This document shows, piece by piece, positions 2,412-34,683 of a DNA stretch of 50,341 nucleotides. A program made the position numbers and the translations under genes. This stretch comes from Acidobacteriota bacterium (GTDB lineage: Bacteria > Acidobacteriota > Vicinamibacteria > Vicinamibacterales > CAVVIG01): positions 1 through 50,341 of the forward strand of contig QHWJ01000245.1 in NCBI GenBank assembly GCA_003222535.1, read 5' to 3'. Positions within the stretch are counted from its first letter, which is position 1. Each line of letters begins with the position of its first letter. The notes beneath the pieces are model-generated. The model saw nothing but the letters and a program-made list of their open reading frames with translations, had not been told where the DNA came from and did no database searches.

Positions 2412-4807
2412 GAAGCGGGGCGTTTGAACAGCGCGGTGTCGATGGGCGCGTTGATTTTCAAGTCGGTCAGCCGGCGTTCGACGGAAAGGGGCCCGACCTT
2501 CCGCACCGCCTGAAACGCGATCTGAATGCCGTCCACGAGGCGATAGTCGGAGAACTGCTCTTCGACGAGCGGCCGACCCGGCGCGTCGGCCGCGAAAGCC
2601 TGCCTGGTGATCAGTCCGCTCTCGGAATCGATGTACAGCACCACAGGGTTGAGATCGCGCGCCCACAGCTCGAGCGCGTGCGTGAGGCGACCGTTGGCGT
2701 CCTTGACGTCCGGCAGGACGCGCGGCGTGAGGGCGCCGGCCCTGGCCGCGATCAGCAGCGCCACGATGTCGCGGCGCAGGCTCACGCGCGCGTCGCGCGC
2801 GACCGACTCGGGCGCGTCGTGCACGCCGCGCTGATCCTTCGACCAGGCCTGCGTGCCGTCGTACCCCTGCGTAACCGCAGGCGTCTCGATCCGGAAGTGA
2901 TCGGGGTATTCGATGTAGTTGGTCGTGTCGCTCTGCGCGTTGCCGTCCGCGCGGCTGATCAACGTCTGCTTCGCGACGATCGTTTTGATGCCTCGGAGCT
3001 TTTCGAGGCCGCCCTTTGCCGCAATCACGCGATCGAGCAACGCCGCCGCCTTCGCGCTCTCCTCCGGCGGCGGATCCTGCGCCGGCCGGCTCGCGAGCGG
3101 GGCTTGCCGATAGGCCAGAGCAGGCGTGTGAAAAAAAACGAGTCCGGCCTGCGCGACAACCGCAGCCCCACCACCCGCCCGACCTTCCTCACCCGACCTA
3201 TCCGACCCACCTGACCTCCCCAACCCACCTGACCTACCCGACCCACCTGACCTACCCAACCCACCCGACCTACCTAACCCACCTGACCTACCCGACCCAC
3301 CTGACCCATCCGCCGCGCCTGCCTTTATCTGCGCCCGCTTGAAGTTCGCCGACGTGAGATCCAGATCCGCGAGGTCCACCGTCTCGAATGTCTCGAAGCC
3401 GAGGCCGCGGAGCTGCGACACGAACGCCGAGGCGTTGCCGACGAGCACCACCGAGAGGCGGTCCGGCCGCAGCAGCTTCCGCGCGACCCGCTGGATGTCG
3501 TCGACCGTGACGGCGTTCACGCGCTCGCGGAACGTCTGAAGCTGCCCGAGAGGCAGCCCGTAGAACAGCACGTTGACGACCTGCATCGCAATCGACTCGG
3601 GCGTCTCGATCGTCAGCGGGAAGCTGCCCGCCATATACGCCTTCGCACCGTCGAGCTCGCGCTCGCCCACCCGCTCACGCTGCAACCGCCAGAACTCGTC
3701 GACGATGAGCTTCAGGACTTCGCCGGTGGCCTCCGATCGCGTATTGGTTGTCGCTTCGAAGTCGCCGGCTTCCTTCAGCGTGTCCATGTTCGCCTGTGCG
3801 CCGTAAGTGAGCCCCCGCTCGGTCCGGTAGTCGGGGTGCGTGCGCGGAATGCCCAGGTGGCCCACCCGGACTTCGGTCTGCACCGCGTCCGGCTTGTTGA
3901 CCACGATCACGCGCCGCGTCGGATCGGGCGGCTCCACGTAGGTCGGAGTCGGCAGGTCGCGCTCGGCCCAGTCCGCGAACACTTTCTTTGCCGCCGCAAA
4001 CGCTTCCTCGGCGGTGATGTCGCCGACAATCGCGAGGATGGCGTTGTTCGGGACGAAGTAGCGCGCGTGGAACGCGAGCAGATCGTCGCGGGAGATGCCG
4101 GCGAGGCTCTGGGGCGAGCCGGTTTCGGGCATGCCGTACGGATGGAAGCCGTAGACCAGGCGATCGAATACCGAGTTGGCGACGTACTCCGGATCTTCGA
4201 GGCTGACGCGCAGACCCGACAGCATCTGCTGGCGCTGCCGTTCGATCTCGGGCGGCGCAAAGGCCGGATGCCGCGCCATCTCCGACAGCATGCGCAGCCC
4301 GGCGTCGAAGCTGTCCTTCATCACGACCATGTTCACGAAGGTCAGGTCGGTGCCCGCGCCCGCGCCCATCGCCCCGCCGATGAAGTCGACGGCGTCGTTC
4401 ATGTCCTGAGCGGACCGGGTCGTCGTGCCCTGATCGAGCAGCGACGCCGCCAGGTGTGCCAGCCCGAGCTTGTCCTTTGGATCCGCCGCGGTGCCCGTGC
4501 GGATCAGGAGGCGCATCGTGACGGCCGGCTGCTCGTGATGCAGCACCGCCACCACCTGCAGGCCATTGGGCAGCGCCTGGAGATCGTAGGGCGGGAACTT
4601 GATGTCGCGCGCCGGCAGCGGCTGTGGCGGCCGCTCGGTCGGCCAGGAGGTCGTCTGGGCCCCGGCGAGGCCACCGACGAAGAGCGAGGACACAGAGAAG
4701 AAAACACCACAGAGACACTGAGCCACAGAGATCTTTTGGATCCTCTGTGTCCTTGTGGCTGCGCGGCTGATCACCCTCTGTGTCCTTGTGAAGCCAGGTG
4801 TCCTCAT
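2408..4807 (-). CDS. M16 family peptidase-like protein (non-catalytic) fused to a LolA-like C-terminal domain
   Basis: The 799-residue product starts with a signal-like segment (roughly residues 26-50), followed by two M16 domains to about residue 495. The HxxEH zinc motif is replaced by HLAAS in 'GLAHLAASLLDQGT', so this is probably the non-catalytic partner. It keeps the RGLTYG arginine/tyrosine region that such subunits use in substrate binding. A Gly/Arg/Ser linker encoded by 9-nt repeats (about 499-542) leads to a C-terminal region (about 570-799, from 'AKAAALLDRVIAAKGG') that resembles LolA/LolB-like outer-membrane lipoprotein-sorting domains. The start ATG overlaps the stop of the catalytic M16 gene (ATGA), and the stop overlaps the lpxB start. 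The signal-peptide region is itself encoded by a CTCTGTGTCC-type repeat. Domain calls are confident for M16 and moderate for the C-terminal part. Confidence 0.88.
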   Translation of the reverse strand: MRTPGFTRTQRVISRAATRTQRIQKISVAQCLCGVFFSVSSLFVGGLAGAQTTSWPTERPPQPLPARDIKFPPYDLQALPNGLQVVAVLHHEQPAVTMRLLIRTGTAADPKDKLGLAHLAASLLDQGTTTRSAQDMNDAVDFIGGAMGAGAGTDLTFVNMVVMKDSFDAGLRMLSEMARHPAFAPPEIERQRQQMLSGLRVSLEDPEYVANSVFDRLVYGFHPYGMPETGSPQSLAGISRDDLLAFHARYFVPNNAILAIVGDITAEEAFAAAKKVFADWAERDLPTPTYVEPPDPTRRVIVVNKPDAVQTEVRVGHLGIPRTHPDYRTERGLTYGAQANMDTLKEAGDFEATTNTRSEATGEVLKLIVDEFWRLQRERVGERELDGAKAYMAGSFPLTIETPESIAMQVVNVLFYGLPLGQLQTFRERVNAVTVDDIQRVARKLLRPDRLSVVLVGNASAFVSQLRGLGFETFETVDLADLDLTSANFKRAQIKAGAADGSGGSGRSGGLGRSGGLGRSGGSGRSGGLGRSGGSDRSGEEGRAGGGAAVVAQAGLVFFHTPALAYRQAPLASRPAQDPPPEESAKAAALLDRVIAAKGGLEKLRGIKTIVAKQTLISRADGNAQSDTTNYIEYPDHFRIETPAVTQGYDGTQAWSKDQRGVHDAPESVARDARVSLRRDIVALLIAARAGALTPRVLPDVKDANGRLTHALELWARDLNPVVLYIDSESGLITRQAFAADAPGRPLVEEQFSDYRLVDGIQIAFQAVRKVGPLSVERRLTDLKINAPIDTALFKRPAS
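3181..3310. repeat. 9-nt tandem array inside the M16 gene
   Basis: About 14 units alternate between ACCTACCCG and ACCCACCTG. Because the unit is nine bases, the array keeps the reading frame and is translated on the minus strand as a flexible linker (GGSGRS, GGLGRS and similar). The same family recurs at 10884-10950, 11844-11970, 12136-12420 and 28479-28510. Confidence 0.9.
4690..4800. repeat. CTCTGTGTCC-type repeat forming a signal-peptide coding region
   Basis: Imperfect copies of CTCTGTGTCCTTGTG, plus inverted CACAGAG units, fill the segment between the two M16 coding cores. The same sequence style is intergenic elsewhere (24318-24415 and 39483-39790). Here it lies wholly inside the 5' end of the non-catalytic M16 gene. 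Confidence 0.75.
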
Positions 4808-10959: not shown

Positions 10960-11943
10960 ATGCGTCCGCTACTCGGAGCTCACATGTCGGTTGCCGGTGG
11001 ACTGCCGCGCGCTGTCGAGCGTGCTGTGGTTCATCGTTGCGACGCCTTTCAAATCTTCGCGAAGAACGCGAGCCAATGGCGCCGGCCGCTGCTGCCGCCA
11101 AGCGAAATCCGCGAGTTTCGCGCCGCGATCAGAAGAACAGGCATCGGACCGGTCGTCTCACACGCCAGTTATCTGATCAACCTCGCGACGACGATTCCGG
11201 GATTGCGCGGGCGATCGATGGAGGCAATGGGCGACGAGCTCGATCGCGCGGAGGCACTCGGGTTGCTCGGCGTGGTGCTGCATCCGGGCTGCTACACGGT
11301 CGGCAGCGAAGCGGAAGGACTCGAGTTGATCGCGAAAGGGCTGCTCGAGCTGCTGCAGGCTCGCGGCCGCGGCAAGACGATGATCCTGCTGGAGCACACG
11401 GCCGGTCAGGGCACCGCGCTCGGCGCGACGTTCGAGCAGCTCGCGGTGATCATCGCCAAGATGAACAACCATCGCCGCGTCGGCGTCTGCCTGGACACTT
11501 GTCACCTGATCGCGTCCGGCTATGACATCTGTTCGCCCGAAGGTTACACGTCGACGTTCAAACAGTTCGGCCGTTTGGTGGGATTCGATCGCCTGAAGGT
11601 GTTTCACCTGAACGACTCGAAGAAACCGCTCGGCAGCCGCGTCGATCGCCACGAGCATATCGGGCAGGGCTGCCTCGGTCTCGACCCTTTCCGCCGAATC
11701 GTCAATGACCACCGTTTTGGTGGGCTGCCGATGTTGCTGGAAACACCCAAAGAAGAGCGCCGCTCGCCACGGTTGATCGAAGTCGATCCCCTCGATGAGA
11801 GGAATTTGGAGACGCTTCGCGGACTGATCGATGGAGCGGATGGGTCAAGCAGGTCGGGTAGGCGTGGGTCAGGTTGGTGGCGTGGGTCAGGTGGGTCAGG
11901 TAGGTCGGGTAGGTCGGATAGGTCAGGTGGGTCGGGCAGGTAA
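10960..11943 (+). CDS. nfo: Deoxyribonuclease IV (AP endonuclease)
   Basis: Endonuclease IV cleaves DNA 5' of abasic sites in base-excision repair. The TIM-barrel product shows the trinuclear zinc motifs in order: LGAHMSVAGG, VSHASYLINLA, VVLHPGCY, LLEHTAGQGTALG, CLDTCHLIASGYD, KVFHLNDSKKPLGSRVDRHE, and LETPKEE. The first ~290 residues match the family; the remaining ~35 (from about GADGSSRSG) are a Gly/Ser/Arg tail encoded by the 9-nt repeat. An ATG at 10960, preceded by a purine-rich GACAGGGG, gives the expected N-terminus. The tail is unlikely to be part of the catalytic fold. Confidence 0.95.
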   Translation: MRPLLGAHMSVAGGLPRAVERAVVHRCDAFQIFAKNASQWRRPLLPPSEIREFRAAIRRTGIGPVVSHASYLINLATTIPGLRGRSMEAMGDELDRAEALGLLGVVLHPGCYTVGSEAEGLELIAKGLLELLQARGRGKTMILLEHTAGQGTALGATFEQLAVIIAKMNNHRRVGVCLDTCHLIASGYDICSPEGYTSTFKQFGRLVGFDRLKVFHLNDSKKPLGSRVDRHEHIGQGCLGLDPFRRIVNDHRFGGLPMLLETPKEERRSPRLIEVDPLDERNLETLRGLIDGADGSSRSGRRGSGWWRGSGGSGRSGRSDRSGGSGR

Positions 11944-11970
11944 TGAGGCGGGTAAGGCGGGTCGGTAGAG
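11844..11970. repeat. 9-nt tandem array encoding the nfo C-terminal tail
   Basis: Units such as GGGTCAGGT and GGGTAGGTC begin inside nfo at about 11844, run through the TAA stop at 11943 and continue about 25 bases beyond it. Confidence 0.85.
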
Positions 11971-12135
11971 CCACTGTTTCCCCTTGCCTACGTACGCTGG
12001 TGAGCCAAACGTTCGCGTACCACCCGACGACAACCTGACCCCGGTCTGGGTGAGTAGCAACGAATATCGTCCCCAGGGACCGGCCCAGCGGAGAACGCAT
12101 TAAGCCAATGCGCGCGAAAATGATCCGTCCCAACC

Positions 12136-12420
12136 GACCTACCTGACCGACCCGACCGACCTGACCTACGCGACCTGCCCGCCCTACCTGACCTGCCCGC
12201 CCTACCGGACCCACGCGACCTACCCGACCTACTCGCCCTGCCTGACCTACCCGACTCACCCGCCCTCCCGGACCCACGCGACCTACCCGCCCTACCTGAC
12301 CTACCCGACTCACCCGCCCTACCTCACCCACGCGACCTACCCGCCCTACGTGACCTACCCGCCCTACCTGACCTACCCGACCCACCTGCCCTGCCTGACC
12401 TACCGGCCCTGCCTGCCCTC
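12136..12420. repeat. Large 9-nt tandem array (about 31 units)
   Basis: The array reads as perfect nine-base phasing of a variable unit with consensus GACCTACCC (variants GCCCTACCT, GACCCACGC, GACTCACCC). It fills most of the space between the convergent nfo and AMMECR1 genes and includes the AMMECR1 stop codon. The rest of the gap (about 11971-12135) shows no gene or RNA that I can recognise. Open frames through the array on either strand only reflect the multiple-of-three unit. Confidence 0.93.
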
Positions 12421-28429: not shown

Positions 28430-28510
28430 GTAGTGCGGACCTTGACGTCCGCCAGCCGGGGACCTGGGGACTGGGGACTACCTGACCTACCCGACCCACG
28501 CGACCTACCT
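28430..28510. repeat. Composite of three repeat families between nadK and mltG
   Basis: A REP-like palindrome (GTAGTGCGGACCTTGACGTC, continuing CGC) at 28430-28452 is followed by GGGGACT 7-nt units (28458-28478) and then by GACCTACCC-type 9-nt units (28479-28510). The last supplies the stop codon of mltG (CTA at 28505-28507, TAG on the minus strand). Confidence 0.88.
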
Positions 28511-30170: not shown

Positions 30171-32219
30171 GTGAAACGCAGCCTGACCGCGTTGCTCGCC
30201 GTTTGCCTCGGTGCCATCGTCGCGTGCGGCACACGCCGCCCGCCGGCAAAATTCCATCAGAAGCTCGTGATCCTCGGCTTCGACGGCATGGATCCGCGCC
30301 TCGTCCAGAAATGGATGGACGAGGGCAAGCTGCCGAACATGCGGAAGCTGGCAACGAGCGGCAGCGCTGTGCGCCCGCTGGGCACCACGCACTCGCCGGA
30401 GTCGCCGACCGCCTGGGCATCGTTTGCGACCGGTGTGAACGCCGGTAAGCACAACATCTACGACTTCCTGATCCGCGACACGACGTCGTACTTGCCGGAT
30501 CTCGGCATGGTGTCGCGAGAGCCGCCGCGCTTCGTCTTCAACTTCATTCCGATCTCGAAGCCGAATATCCGATCGATCCGGGGCGGCACGTCGTTCTGGG
30601 TCACCGCCGGCGCCGCCGGCGTCCGCTCGAGCATGCTCACGGTGCCGGTGACGTATCCTCCCGAGGAAGTGCCCAACGGCGAGCTGCTGTCCGGCCTTCC
30701 CTTGCCGGACATCCGCGGCACGATGGGAACGTTTTACTATTTCGGGACCGATCTCAGCCGCTACGAGGAAGGCAACACGGAGTTTGGCGGCATCCTGAAG
30801 CGCCTGGTGTTCGACGGCGACGTCGCGCAGACGGAGCTCGTGGGGCCGCCGAATCCGATCGTGCGCCAGCAACTTCGGGTGCTGCGCGCGAAGACACCGC
30901 TCTCCGAGCTGGACAGGATGAAGATCGCCGAGCTCGAGGCGCGCGAGGACGTGCGGCTGCCGGTCACCGTTCACTGGAACCGCGCGGGCAAGTCGGCGAC
31001 CGTCGACATCGGGGACAGTTCGATCCACCTTTCCGAGCATCAGTGGAGCAAGTGGATCAACCTCGACTTCAACATCAACCTGCTTGTTCGCGTTCACGGC
31101 ATGGCGCAGCTGTACCTGATCGGCGCGGGTCAGGAACTGCAGCTCTACGCCTCGCCGGTGAACTGGAGGCCCGACAGCCCGCCGGCCCCGATGTCCTCGC
31201 CGGCCTCGTTCGCCGGCGACCTCTACGAGCGCCTTGGCCCATTCCGCACGCTCGGCTGGGCGGAAGCCACGTGGCCGCTCAACGAGGACCGCATCGACGA
31301 GCGGACGTTCATGGAGGACCTGTTCCGCGCGTTCGACGACCGCGCGCAGGTGATCCTCCATCGGATCGACGCGAAACAGTGGGATCTGCTCGTCGGCGTC
31401 ATCGAATCGACCGACCGCGTCCAGCACATGATGTGGCGCCTCATCGATCCCGCGCATCCGATGTACGACAAGGCGCTCGCCGCGAAGTTCGGCGACTCGA
31501 TCGAGCGCGTCTACAGGAAGTGCGACGACTTCACCGGCGAAGTCATGTCGCGCGTGGATCCCGGCACGCCGATTCTGATCGTCTCGGACCACGGCTTCCA
31601 TTCGTTCCGCCAGTCGGTGAACCTGAACACGTGGCTCGTGCAGGAAGGGTTCATGGCCATCCGGGGTCAGCAGCCCGGCGACAAGAAGCTGCAGGACCTG
31701 TTCGGCGGCGGCACGTTCTGGGAGAATGTGGACTGGACGCGCACCAGGGCGTACGCGATGGGGCTCGGACAGATCTACCTGAACCTGAAGGGCCGCGAAG
31801 GACACGGCGTCGTGCCGCCCGCCGATTCGAACGCCGTTCAGGACGACCTCGCCGCCAGGCTGCTCACGATGACCGACCCGAAGACCGGTGCGCCGATGGT
31901 GACGGCCGTCTACAAGCGCGACGACATCTATAAAGGGCCGTTCCTCCAGAACGCATCCGAGCTTCAAGTCGGTCTGGCCGACGGGTACCGCGTGTCGTGG
32001 CAATCCACACTCGGCGGATCGCCTCCGGGAATCGTGTATCCGAACATGAAGAAATGGTCGGGCGACCACGGCGCCTTCGATTACAAGCAGACGCCGGGAA
32101 CCCTCCTCTCGAACTGGCCGATCGACGGCCCCGCGCGAATCATCGATCTTGCGCCGACGGTATTGAAGTACTTCGGGCTGCCGATACCTTCGGATATAGA
32201 TGGAAAGCCGTTGTTCTAA
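30171..32219 (+). CDS. Lipoprotein of the alkaline phosphatase / phosphodiesterase superfamily
   Basis: The 682-residue product starts at GTG and has a lipoprotein signal with the lipobox Cys19 (AIVACG). The alkaline-phosphatase-superfamily core is clear: 'KLVILGFDGMDPRLVQKW' supplies the first metal-binding Asp, 'SPESPTAWASFATG' the Ser/Thr nucleophile, 'ILIVSDHGFHS' the second metal-binding Asp/His and 'SGDHGAFD' a further His. It ends 'IIDLAPTVLKYFGLPIP', typical of sulfatase and nucleotide pyrophosphatase/phosphodiesterase-like proteins. Inserted beta-rich sequence lies at about 130-390. It is probably a membrane-anchored periplasmic phosphodi- or monoesterase of unknown substrate. Confidence 0.88.
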   Translation: MKRSLTALLAVCLGAIVACGTRRPPAKFHQKLVILGFDGMDPRLVQKWMDEGKLPNMRKLATSGSAVRPLGTTHSPESPTAWASFATGVNAGKHNIYDFLIRDTTSYLPDLGMVSREPPRFVFNFIPISKPNIRSIRGGTSFWVTAGAAGVRSSMLTVPVTYPPEEVPNGELLSGLPLPDIRGTMGTFYYFGTDLSRYEEGNTEFGGILKRLVFDGDVAQTELVGPPNPIVRQQLRVLRAKTPLSELDRMKIAELEAREDVRLPVTVHWNRAGKSATVDIGDSSIHLSEHQWSKWINLDFNINLLVRVHGMAQLYLIGAGQELQLYASPVNWRPDSPPAPMSSPASFAGDLYERLGPFRTLGWAEATWPLNEDRIDERTFMEDLFRAFDDRAQVILHRIDAKQWDLLVGVIESTDRVQHMMWRLIDPAHPMYDKALAAKFGDSIERVYRKCDDFTGEVMSRVDPGTPILIVSDHGFHSFRQSVNLNTWLVQEGFMAIRGQQPGDKKLQDLFGGGTFWENVDWTRTRAYAMGLGQIYLNLKGREGHGVVPPADSNAVQDDLAARLLTMTDPKTGAPMVTAVYKRDDIYKGPFLQNASELQVGLADGYRVSWQSTLGGSPPGIVYPNMKKWSGDHGAFDYKQTPGTLLSNWPIDGPARIIDLAPTVLKYFGLPIPSDIDGKPLF

Positions 32220-33459
32220 CGAGGGCGGTCGTAGTGCGGACCTTAAGGTCCGCTGGCAGGCAGGCCTCAAGGCCTGCACTACGGCTGCAGTTGCGGCGGC
32301 CCTCTCGGCAGGTCTATCCGCCCAGCAGCCCGACCGCGAGCGCACCGAAGCGCTCGCCCACCGCGCGACGGCCCGCCTGCAGGCGCTGCAGCACGAAGCG
32401 GAGCCGGAACGTGCGCGCACGGAGGCGCTCGCGCGGCGCGCGACGGAACGGTTGCAGGCGCTCCAGCGTGAAGCGGATCGTCTCGCGTTGGAGGAGCGTA
32501 CGCTGCTCGGCGATCTCCGGAAGCTCGAAATCGAGCGGCAGCTGCGAGCCGAACAGCTGAAGCAGGTGGACGCTGACGCCGCGCGAGTCCAGGCCGAGCT
32601 CGACGCGACGGCCGCACGCATCGAATCGCTCGCCGCCGCCGAGCGCAGGGAGCAGCCCGAGTTGCGCGCGCGGCTCATTGAGATCTACAAGCTCGGCCAG
32701 GCGCGGTACCTGCGCCTCCTGTTGTCGACACCGGATCTGCGGCGCCTCGGTCAGTCGACACGCACCGTGGCCGCGCTTGCCAAGCTCGATCGCGATCGTG
32801 TCGACTCGCACGCGCACACGATCGGCGAGCTCGAGGCCACGCGCAAGACGCTCGAACAACGCCGCGGCGAGCTCGAGGCGCTGCGCGCGGCGGCCGAAAA
32901 GGCCGACGTGGCGGCCCGGCGCGCGGCGCAGGCCCGCAGCGAGCTGATTCGCGACATCGATCGCCGGCGCGACCTCAACGCCCAGCTTGCCGGCGAGCTG
33001 CAGGTGGCGCAGCAGAAGCTGCAGGCGGCCCTTCGCGAGCTGGTCAACGGCGCGCCCGCGGCGGAGACGGCCGCGCTGCCGCTCCGGCCGTTCCGCGGAG
33101 ACCTCGAGTGGCCGGTGAACGGCGTGGTGAAGCGGCGGTTCGGCCGCGGCGCGGCACCGAACGGCATCGAAATCGCCGCGGTCGAAGGCGCCCAGGCTTT
33201 GGCCGTCCACGACGGCGTCGTCGCTTTTGCCGGCACTTTTGCCGGATTCGGAAATCTGGTGATCCTCGACCACGGATCGCAGACGTTCACCTTGTACGGC
33301 GATTTGCTGGAAATAACGGTCAAGAAGGGCGCCCGCGCGGAGCACGGCCAACCCGTCGGGACCGTGGGGCCGATCCCGTCGGGCTCCGACGGCCTCTATT
33401 TCGAACTGCGCGTCGACGGTCAGCCGGTCGATCCCGTACAATGGTTGCGGAAGCGTTAG
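32200..33459 (+). CDS. EnvC-like murein hydrolase activator with degenerate LytM domain
   Basis: The 419-residue product has an N-terminal signal-like segment (about 27-42, AAVAAALSAGLSAQQ), a long Ala/Glu/Arg coiled coil (about 45-270) and a C-terminal LytM/M23 domain. The zinc ligands of active M23 enzymes are lost: the first motif reads NGIEI, the second region 'FTLYGDLL', and the HxH position 'LYFELR', as in E. coli EnvC, which activates amidases rather than cutting peptidoglycan. No in-frame start exists between ATG 32200 and the signal core, so residues 11-28 must be translated from a REP element. The ATG lies inside the end of the phosphodiesterase gene. Confidence 0.9.
   Translation: MESRCSNEGGRSADLKVRWQAGLKACTTAAVAAALSAGLSAQQPDRERTEALAHRATARLQALQHEAEPERARTEALARRATERLQALQREADRLALEERTLLGDLRKLEIERQLRAEQLKQVDADAARVQAELDATAARIESLAAAERREQPELRARLIEIYKLGQARYLRLLLSTPDLRRLGQSTRTVAALAKLDRDRVDSHAHTIGELEATRKTLEQRRGELEALRAAAEKADVAARRAAQARSELIRDIDRRRDLNAQLAGELQVAQQKLQAALRELVNGAPAAETAALPLRPFRGDLEWPVNGVVKRRFGRGAAPNGIEIAAVEGAQALAVHDGVVAFAGTFAGFGNLVILDHGSQTFTLYGDLLEITVKKGARAEHGQPVGTVGPIPSGSDGLYFELRVDGQPVDPVQWLRKR
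32230..32283. repeat. REP-like double palindrome at the 5' end of the EnvC-like gene
   Basis: GCGGACCTTAAGGTCCGC (an 18-base palindrome) is followed by CAGGCCTCAAGGCCTG, with GTAGTG and CACTAC as outer inverted ends. A related element is at 28430-28452. It is translated as ADLKVRWQAGLKACTT. Confidence 0.92.
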
Positions 33460-33516: not shown

Positions 33517-34683
33517 ATGAGCTCTCGCACTCGACTGATCGTGATGTCCATCTCGGCGCCGGTGATCGCGTTCGCAATCGTCGGAGGGTTCCTCGGCAAG
33601 GTGATGGCGCGCGAGGACACGTATCAGCACCTCAAGATCTTCGACGACGTGGTGAGCTTGATTTCGAGCAACTACGTGGAAGAGGCGGACATCGACAAGG
33701 TGATGCGCGGAGCGATGCGAGGCCTCGCAGACGGCCTCGATCCGGATAGCGCGTACCTCACCGTCGCCGAAGTGAAGCAGGTGGAAAGCGGCGTGGCGCT
33801 GCCGCCCGGAGGCGTGGGGCTCGAGCTGACGCGCCAGTACTATCTGCGCGTCATCGCGGCTCGCGACAACTCACCGGCGGCGAAGGCCGGGCTGCGCACC
33901 GGCGACTACATCCGCGCCATCAACGACATTCCGACCCGCGAGATGTCGGTGTGGGAAGGCATTCGTGCCCTGCGCGGCACTCCGGGGACGAAAGTCAGCA
34001 TGGCCATCATCCGCGGCAACGCCGCCGATCCGCACGTCATCGAGCTGACGCGCGAAAACGAGCCGGCCTCCGTGGTCAACGGCCGGATGGCGGGGGCGGG
34101 AATCGGCTACGTCCGCGTGGCGGCGATCGGGTCGGCGACCGCCGGCCAGGTAAAGTCCCAGGTCGCCGAGCTGACCAAAAGCGGTGCCTCGAAGCTGGTG
34201 GTCGACGTCCGCCGCGCCGCGAACGGATCGATCGACGACGGTCTCGCGCTGGCGCGGTTGTTCGTGGCCAAAGGCACGCTGACGATCCGGGAAACGAAAG
34301 GCGGCCTGCGAGAGCCGATCGCCGCCGGAGCCGGCGACGGATCCATCGCGCTTTCGACGGTGTTGCTCGTGGATACGGGCACGTCCGGCGCCGCGGAGGT
34401 TTTCGCGGCGGCGCTCGTCGGCAACCAGCGCGCCGAGTTGATTGGCGAGCACACGATCGGCCGCGCGGCGTCGCAAAAGCTCGTCAGGTTGCCCGACGGC
34501 GCAGGCATCTGGCTGTCGACCACGCGCTACCTCACGCCCGCCGGAGCGCCGCTGCACGAAAAGGGGCTCGAGCCCACCGTCCCGGTGGACGATCCGGACA
34601 TCGAGTTCGGGCAGCCCGCGCCGACGACTGACCCCATCCTCGACAAGGCACTGGAACGACTCGGCGAGAAAAAAGCCGCGTGA
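33517..34683 (+). CDS. S41-family C-terminal processing protease-like protein, catalytic residues missing
   Basis: The 388-residue product has a membrane anchor (residues 8-28), the CtpA N-terminal helix region ('LKIFDDVVSLISSNYVEEAD'), a PDZ domain (about 90-170, 'GLRTGDYIRAINDIP') and an S41 domain. Aligning to E. coli Tsp by the 'AAE' and 'GExTxG' anchors, Ser430 falls on Gly (TSGAAE), Asp441 on Gly, and Lys455 on Arg (GEHTIGRAAS). It is therefore probably a non-proteolytic homologue or has shifted catalysis. It follows the EnvC-like gene by 57 bases, a common pairing in bacteria. Confidence 0.9.
   Translation: MSSRTRLIVMSISAPVIAFAIVGGFLGKVMAREDTYQHLKIFDDVVSLISSNYVEEADIDKVMRGAMRGLADGLDPDSAYLTVAEVKQVESGVALPPGGVGLELTRQYYLRVIAARDNSPAAKAGLRTGDYIRAINDIPTREMSVWEGIRALRGTPGTKVSMAIIRGNAADPHVIELTRENEPASVVNGRMAGAGIGYVRVAAIGSATAGQVKSQVAELTKSGASKLVVDVRRAANGSIDDGLALARLFVAKGTLTIRETKGGLREPIAAGAGDGSIALSTVLLVDTGTSGAAEVFAAALVGNQRAELIGEHTIGRAASQKLVRLPDGAGIWLSTTRYLTPAGAPLHEKGLEPTVPVDDPDIEFGQPAPTTDPILDKALERLGEKKAA

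Follow-up and report, generated by a model that had tools for sequence, protein, structure and literature searches.

The window, a stretch of 50,341 nt from the genome of an uncultured Acidobacteriota bacterium, carries a gene for a putatively secreted EnvC-like protein. Its start codon is contained in the terminal codons of the gene upstream (..DIDGKPLF*), and a palindromic REP doublet is located between this start and the hydrophobic core. The features of the locus are as follows.

30171-32219, plus strand: upstream gene, type I phosphodiesterase/nucleotide pyrophosphatase family (ORF list; Pfam PF01663, E 8.4e-38)
32200-32219, plus strand: 20-nt overlap, from ATG 32200, contained in the upstream GAT-GGA (Asp-Gly) codon pair, to the upstream stop at 32219 (from the sequence)
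32200-33459, plus strand: EnvC-like coiled-coil and M23 protein (Pfam Peptidase_M23, NCBIfam, PDB chains)
32231-32282, plus strand: REP doublet, two GTAG-ended half palindromes with tags outward and a 6-nt spacer
32231-32253, plus strand: first half palindrome, GTAGTGCGGACCTTAAGGTCCGC
32260-32282, minus strand: second half palindrome, on the opposite strand, GTAGTGCAGGCCTTGAGGCCTGC
32284-32316, plus strand: hydrophobic core AAVAAALSAGL, residues 29-39, mean Kyte-Doolittle value 1.95
33517-34683, plus strand: downstream gene, S41 PDZ protease (carboxyl-terminal processing type)
28430-28452, plus strand: another half palindrome of this REP family, the third in the window, intergenic

The open reading frame 32200-33459 encodes 419 amino acids with the N-terminus MESRCSNEGGRSADLKVRWQAGLKACTTAAVAAALSAGLSAQQ. 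The REP doublet, the hydrophobic core, a coiled-coil region and the M23 domain (residues 321-412, Pfam Peptidase_M23) follow one another in this frame, which corresponds to the EnvC plan of a coiled coil followed by a C-terminal M23/LytM domain, the coiled coil itself being read from the sequence. PDB EnvC chains match the protein, and the alignment extends to full-length chains of the coiled-coil plus M23/LytM type. The NCBIfam EnvC model is matched with E 1.6e-18 and 66.9 bits against a cut-off of 270, so that the protein is EnvC-like and falls outside the EnvC equivalog. The sequence-only reading, an earlier interpretation of this DNA, had proposed an EnvC-like secreted protein, and by similarity this name is appropriate.

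The features of a Sec signal peptide are present, with an n-region charge of +2, the core described above and LSA-QQ at the predicted cleavage site, which was estimated to lie, as is likely, just after the core. The EnvC-like M23 protein would be cleaved there and exported. The n-region is long (28 residues), and the SD-like GGA ahead of ATG 32200 is weak. Ahead of the core, ATG 32200 is the only in-frame ATG, GTG or TTG, as the earlier reading had stated. Elsewhere in the window, long arrays of a 9-nt unit (ACCTGACCT-like) are found in both orientations (3120-3377, 11864-11948 and 12088-12420), and positions 472-1015 show a 9-nt periodicity and look like a collagen-like Gly-rich coding stretch.

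The REP doublet and its family

The double palindrome had previously been placed at 32230-32283. The doublet comprises 52 nt (GTAGTGC-hairpin, TGGCAG, hairpin-GCACTAC), or 54 nt with the flanking C-G pair, in agreement with that description, and belongs to a dispersed REP family. It is read in frame as (R)SADLKVRWQAGLKACT(T), and four of its six frames are free of stops. The net charge of residues 1-10 is -1, that of the REP-coded residues 11-28 is +3. The RNA of the doublet is predicted to pair as a single long hairpin, with -36.8 kcal/mol and a z of -5.9 relative to 200 shuffles.

A degenerate pattern of the half REP has three matches in the window, versus none in 100 shuffles. With up to two mismatches, 19 matches are found in the genome (8.06 Mb), versus none in the reversed control, and a looser pattern gives 54 matches, versus 10 in the control. 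The family thus has many dispersed copies, in a moderate rather than very high number. Both halves of the doublet open with GTAG; other genomic copies also open with GTCG, GTGG, GAAG or ATAG. A search of the genome for a RAYT dedicated to this REP and flanked by it found none and returned a single Y1_Tnp gene (L139, G000:C216:39994-40323). This gene is located between palindromes of another stem type, GTCCGGCTTCAGCCGGAC, which has 22 exact matches in the genome. A RAYT flanked by the REP is common but not obligatory, because according to Di Nocera et al. (2013, PMC3733652) RAYT-REP pairs are missing in some species.

Several other REP copies in this genome are also in frame with ORFs, as judged from gene calls made with a home-made codon score instead of a standard caller. 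In an M13 peptidase, a doublet is found in frame just past the signal-like stretch (..ALGAAQRPTADLKVPTTPGAARSK..; L054 1441-1523, G000:C409), and two REP halves are found inside an S58 peptidase ORF (L066 1501-1523 and 1243-1265, G000:C448), one of them at the end of its signal-like N-terminus. Another doublet lies within an ORF that is AMP-ligase-like by reading of the sequence (L061).

Conservation of the overlapping start codon

The orthologue set comprises 90 loci from the order, 36 of which have the phosphodiesterase gene directly upstream. The duplicate locus L076 was dropped, and weak, truncated or interrupted matches in 9 of the 99 matching genomes were left out (G073, G039, G051, G069, G062, G076, G041, G114 and G029). 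One TAG and two TGA codons are found within the matched frame of the M23 orthologues G087:C88 and G039:C5.

Among the 36 comparable orthologues, the Asp codon near the end of the upstream gene is GAT in 19 and GAC in 14, and three differ. GAT creates the same ATG as at 32200 (IDGKPLF*), nearly always without the REP of the window, in members of three families (11, 7 and 1). On average, GAT accounts for a fraction of 0.31 of the Asp codons in the same upstream genes, and it is nonetheless the codon at the overlap; conservation of Asp-Gly in the upstream protein explains the overlapping ATG in part.

In 19 of 19 cases, the overlapping ATG shares the frame of the M23 gene, and this frame is open to the mature protein. 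By contrast, the corresponding position is in phase in 2 of the 14 GAC orthologues, one of these two with a stop (Fisher 2.6e-7, with kinship ignored, so that relatedness inflates the contrast). Another usual start is present in 13 of the 14 GAC orthologues (counted by eye), and the proportion without another usual start ahead of the core is 12 of 19 for the overlapping-ATG group versus 1 of 14 for the GAC group. L075 (G046) is a GAC orthologue without a usual in-frame start ahead of the core. All but one of the GAC orthologues (13 of 14) belong to families other than those with the overlapping start.

Stops are absent from the used frame of the spacer in all 19 orthologues and occur in 12 and 3 of them in the other two frames. 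The estimated length from the ATG to the cleavage site takes 14 different values among the 19, all in frame, which implies that many length changes took place without loss of the frame; for these length and charge comparisons, cleavage sites were placed by eye. Taken together, the in-frame contrast and the separate starts of the GAC orthologues argue that the overlap is ancestral and the overlapping start older than the REP, as far as sequence comparison can tell, and that the overlapping ATG is very probably the start in use and the spacer translated.

In the doubts raised by Di Nocera et al. (2013, PMC3733652), REPs at predicted N-termini often lie outside the true gene, which starts downstream. 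Such an arrangement, with the REP as an untranslated hairpin and translation from a non-canonical codon past it, would agree with the strong hairpin formed by the doublet. However, there is no ATG, GTG or TTG from the REP to the core, and the frame from the overlapping ATG is open in 19 orthologues across many spacer lengths. We therefore consider an untranslated REP unlikely. Its translation as the basic n-region, as originally suggested, is very probable.

The sequence-only reading had also claimed that the REP displaced the start into the upstream gene. In that version, an older start behind the upstream stop would have been destroyed by the REP, and translation would have had to fall back on an ATG within the upstream gene. 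Starts are indeed able to shift, since the 14 GAC orthologues have no ATG at the overlap and 13 of them start elsewhere. However, displacement by the REP is contradicted within the window's own family, in which the overlapping ATG is present and in frame in 11 of 11 members with the Asp codon, and 10 of these lack the window's REP. In G018 and G001, two members whose upstream protein ends differently, another overlapping ATG serves as the start. Moreover, several of the 19 overlapping-ATG orthologues (G037, G075 and G082) have the same ATG and no recognizable repeat. This part of the earlier claim is thus abandoned, displacement being highly improbable. No relative nearer than about 76-78% identity was found (the contig scan returned 4 loci), which is why the empty site before the REP is unseen.

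An RNA hairpin at the gene junction, acting as an attenuator or processing site with an incidental translation product, might instead be the conserved element. REPs are known RNA elements, and spacer folding reaches z < -2 in 8 of 19 cases versus 3 of 19 for nearby coding DNA (the comparison covered the 19 overlapping-ATG spacers and, on the GAC side, 10 of 14 orthologues). Yet 11 of the 19 spacers are not unusually structured, some have no repeat, and a hairpin does not need a conserved frame. With 8 of 19 spacers only, a conserved hairpin was rejected as the common theme, and we regard this explanation as very unlikely.

Dispersed repeats in the signal peptide region

A common N-terminus of the orthologues, considered earlier as a possible objection, exists for the first residues (MASRCS/MESRCS); the remainder is different in every lineage. 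Beyond the six overlap residues, the orthologous signal peptides show no mutual resemblance. In six other genomes, the signal-peptide DNA is a dispersed repeat from one of four unrelated families, with the following matches in the respective genomes and 0 in every reversed control.

9-mer repeat: G017, 36 matches
7-mer repeat: G026, 91 matches; G002, 17 matches
8-mer repeat: G016, 60 matches; 0 in the genus mates G026 and G024
Palindrome: G103, 35 sites; G094, 32 sites

The REP of the window, described earlier as an example of a non-coding repeat turned into part of a secretion signal, is therefore not an isolated case. The two genomes G026 and G016 belong to one genus, and their mature parts are identical at 304 of 349 positions (87%), versus 9 of 32 aligned positions in the signal peptide, which is built on the 7-mer in G026 and on the 8-mer in G016. 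The repeat units GGTGGCT (7-mer), GCATTCCT (8-mer) and TCTGCGGTT (9-mer) are free of stops in all frames. Alternative in-frame starts ahead of the core occur in five of the seven genomes with repeats (G017, G026, G016, G103 and G094). The spacer, and hence the signal peptide, appears from these comparisons to be remade from the dispersed repeats of each lineage.

The 9-mer pattern is absent from G005 and G015 and occurs once in G020. The REP-like n-region of G049 was also considered as a dispersed repeat and rejected, its exact palindrome being found once in the genome, in the M23 gene only. Within the fetched samples, the 8-mer arrays are intergenic in 14 of 14 clusters, the 7-mer in 10 of 20 cases and the palindrome in 4 of 7. 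Several genic copies of the 7-mer are located inside plausible genes and are read as polar peptide.

Two further exported-looking proteins seem to share the arrangement of a repeat within the signal peptide, a DUF4440 protein in G026 and a SurA-like protein in G016. The DUF4440 protein (L188 952-1443, G026:C36) has its start within the 3' end of a gene that is aldehyde-dehydrogenase-like by reading of the sequence and receives its TAG stop from the GTAG of a REP. This REP and a 7-mer are read as the n-region, and a GTG past the REP is an alternative start. In the second protein (L208 979-1545, G016:C61), which is weakly SurA-like and below the Pfam cut-off, the signal-peptide core AFLHSCILAF is encoded by the 8-mer of G016.

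Assemblies break at repeats, and the metagenome-derived genome of the window consists of 450 contigs, which might point to an assembly artefact. The ORF is intact across the REP, however, and the parallel arrangement of overlap and REP at L188 occurs in another gene and another genome, which leaves an artefact extremely unlikely.

Proposed explanation and relation to known systems

With good confidence, we propose that the start of the M23 gene is held in the end of its upstream neighbor, and that inserts into the spacer are translated and retained only where they serve as a signal peptide. The anatomy of the locus, its conservation, the frame, the stop-free spacer and the dispersal of the repeats are observed; translation, export and the order of insertions are inferred here. 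Locking of the ATG in the 3' end of the upstream gene would be an old arrangement, and the spacer would be compulsory coding DNA because the start lies in the neighboring gene. Whatever enters between the upstream stop and the mature protein would become translated, and would survive only when it is divisible by three in length, contains no in-frame stop and yields a product that reads as a signal peptide. The insert of the window, a GTAG-type REP doublet, would provide an open frame (ADLKVR..GLKAC) and raise the charge of the n-region to +2, from -1 for residues 1-10 alone, ahead of the core AVAAALSAGL. Tandem repeats with stop-free units could pass these constraints easily. Since one strand of such repeats reads more hydrophobic and the other polar, inverted arrays could encode first a polar and then a hydrophobic stretch, as in a signal peptide.

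The orthologues would then form a natural series in which the mature part and the start codon are kept while the export signal is exchanged for the common repeat of the lineage. This would be a concrete route from non-coding repeat DNA to a working targeting signal. Gene callers that shift the start past a REP would delete real signal peptides. More tentatively, a locked start may be a trap, in which a repeat becomes a signal peptide or the gene dies, and in these acidobacteria dispersed repeats might supply many genes with export signals.

Di Nocera et al. (2013, PMC3733652) describe GTAG-tagged REPs as imperfect palindromes that form doublets with tags outward, are mostly intergenic and sometimes lie in frame within ORFs, where GTAG may provide a TAG stop. 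The doublet of the window shares the common GTAG end, the imperfect palindrome, the outward tags and the in-frame reading, whereas the tag varies in its family (GTAG, GTCG, GTGG). Many N-terminal cases are doubted in that account; here, the phase of the orthologues, the stop-free frame and the lack of other starts favor translation. Rickettsia palindromic elements are short palindromic repeats translated within conserved proteins (Ogata et al. 2000, as described in PMC2229807). They measure 105-146 bp and are found in many kinds of protein, in contrast to the 52-nt REP of the window, which lies in an export signal. The RU-2/YAPL repeat contributes part of the signal peptide predicted for YPO1552 (Delihas 2007, PMC2759123; reviewed in PMC2229807). 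As described there, it is one element in one lineage. Here, by contrast, orthologues of a single gene carry five or more unrelated repeats across seven genomes, and we propose the overlapping start as the cause.

Published precedents exist both for palindromic repeats within proteins and for a repeat as part of a signal peptide. In the openly licensed literature, no relevant reports were found of signal peptides derived from tandem repeats or overlaps, nor of a gene with a conserved overlapping start whose signal peptide is serially replaced by unrelated repeats. Relative to the known systems, what looks new is that a single gene has had its signal peptide replaced repeatedly, for which a start codon locked in the neighboring gene offers an explanation.
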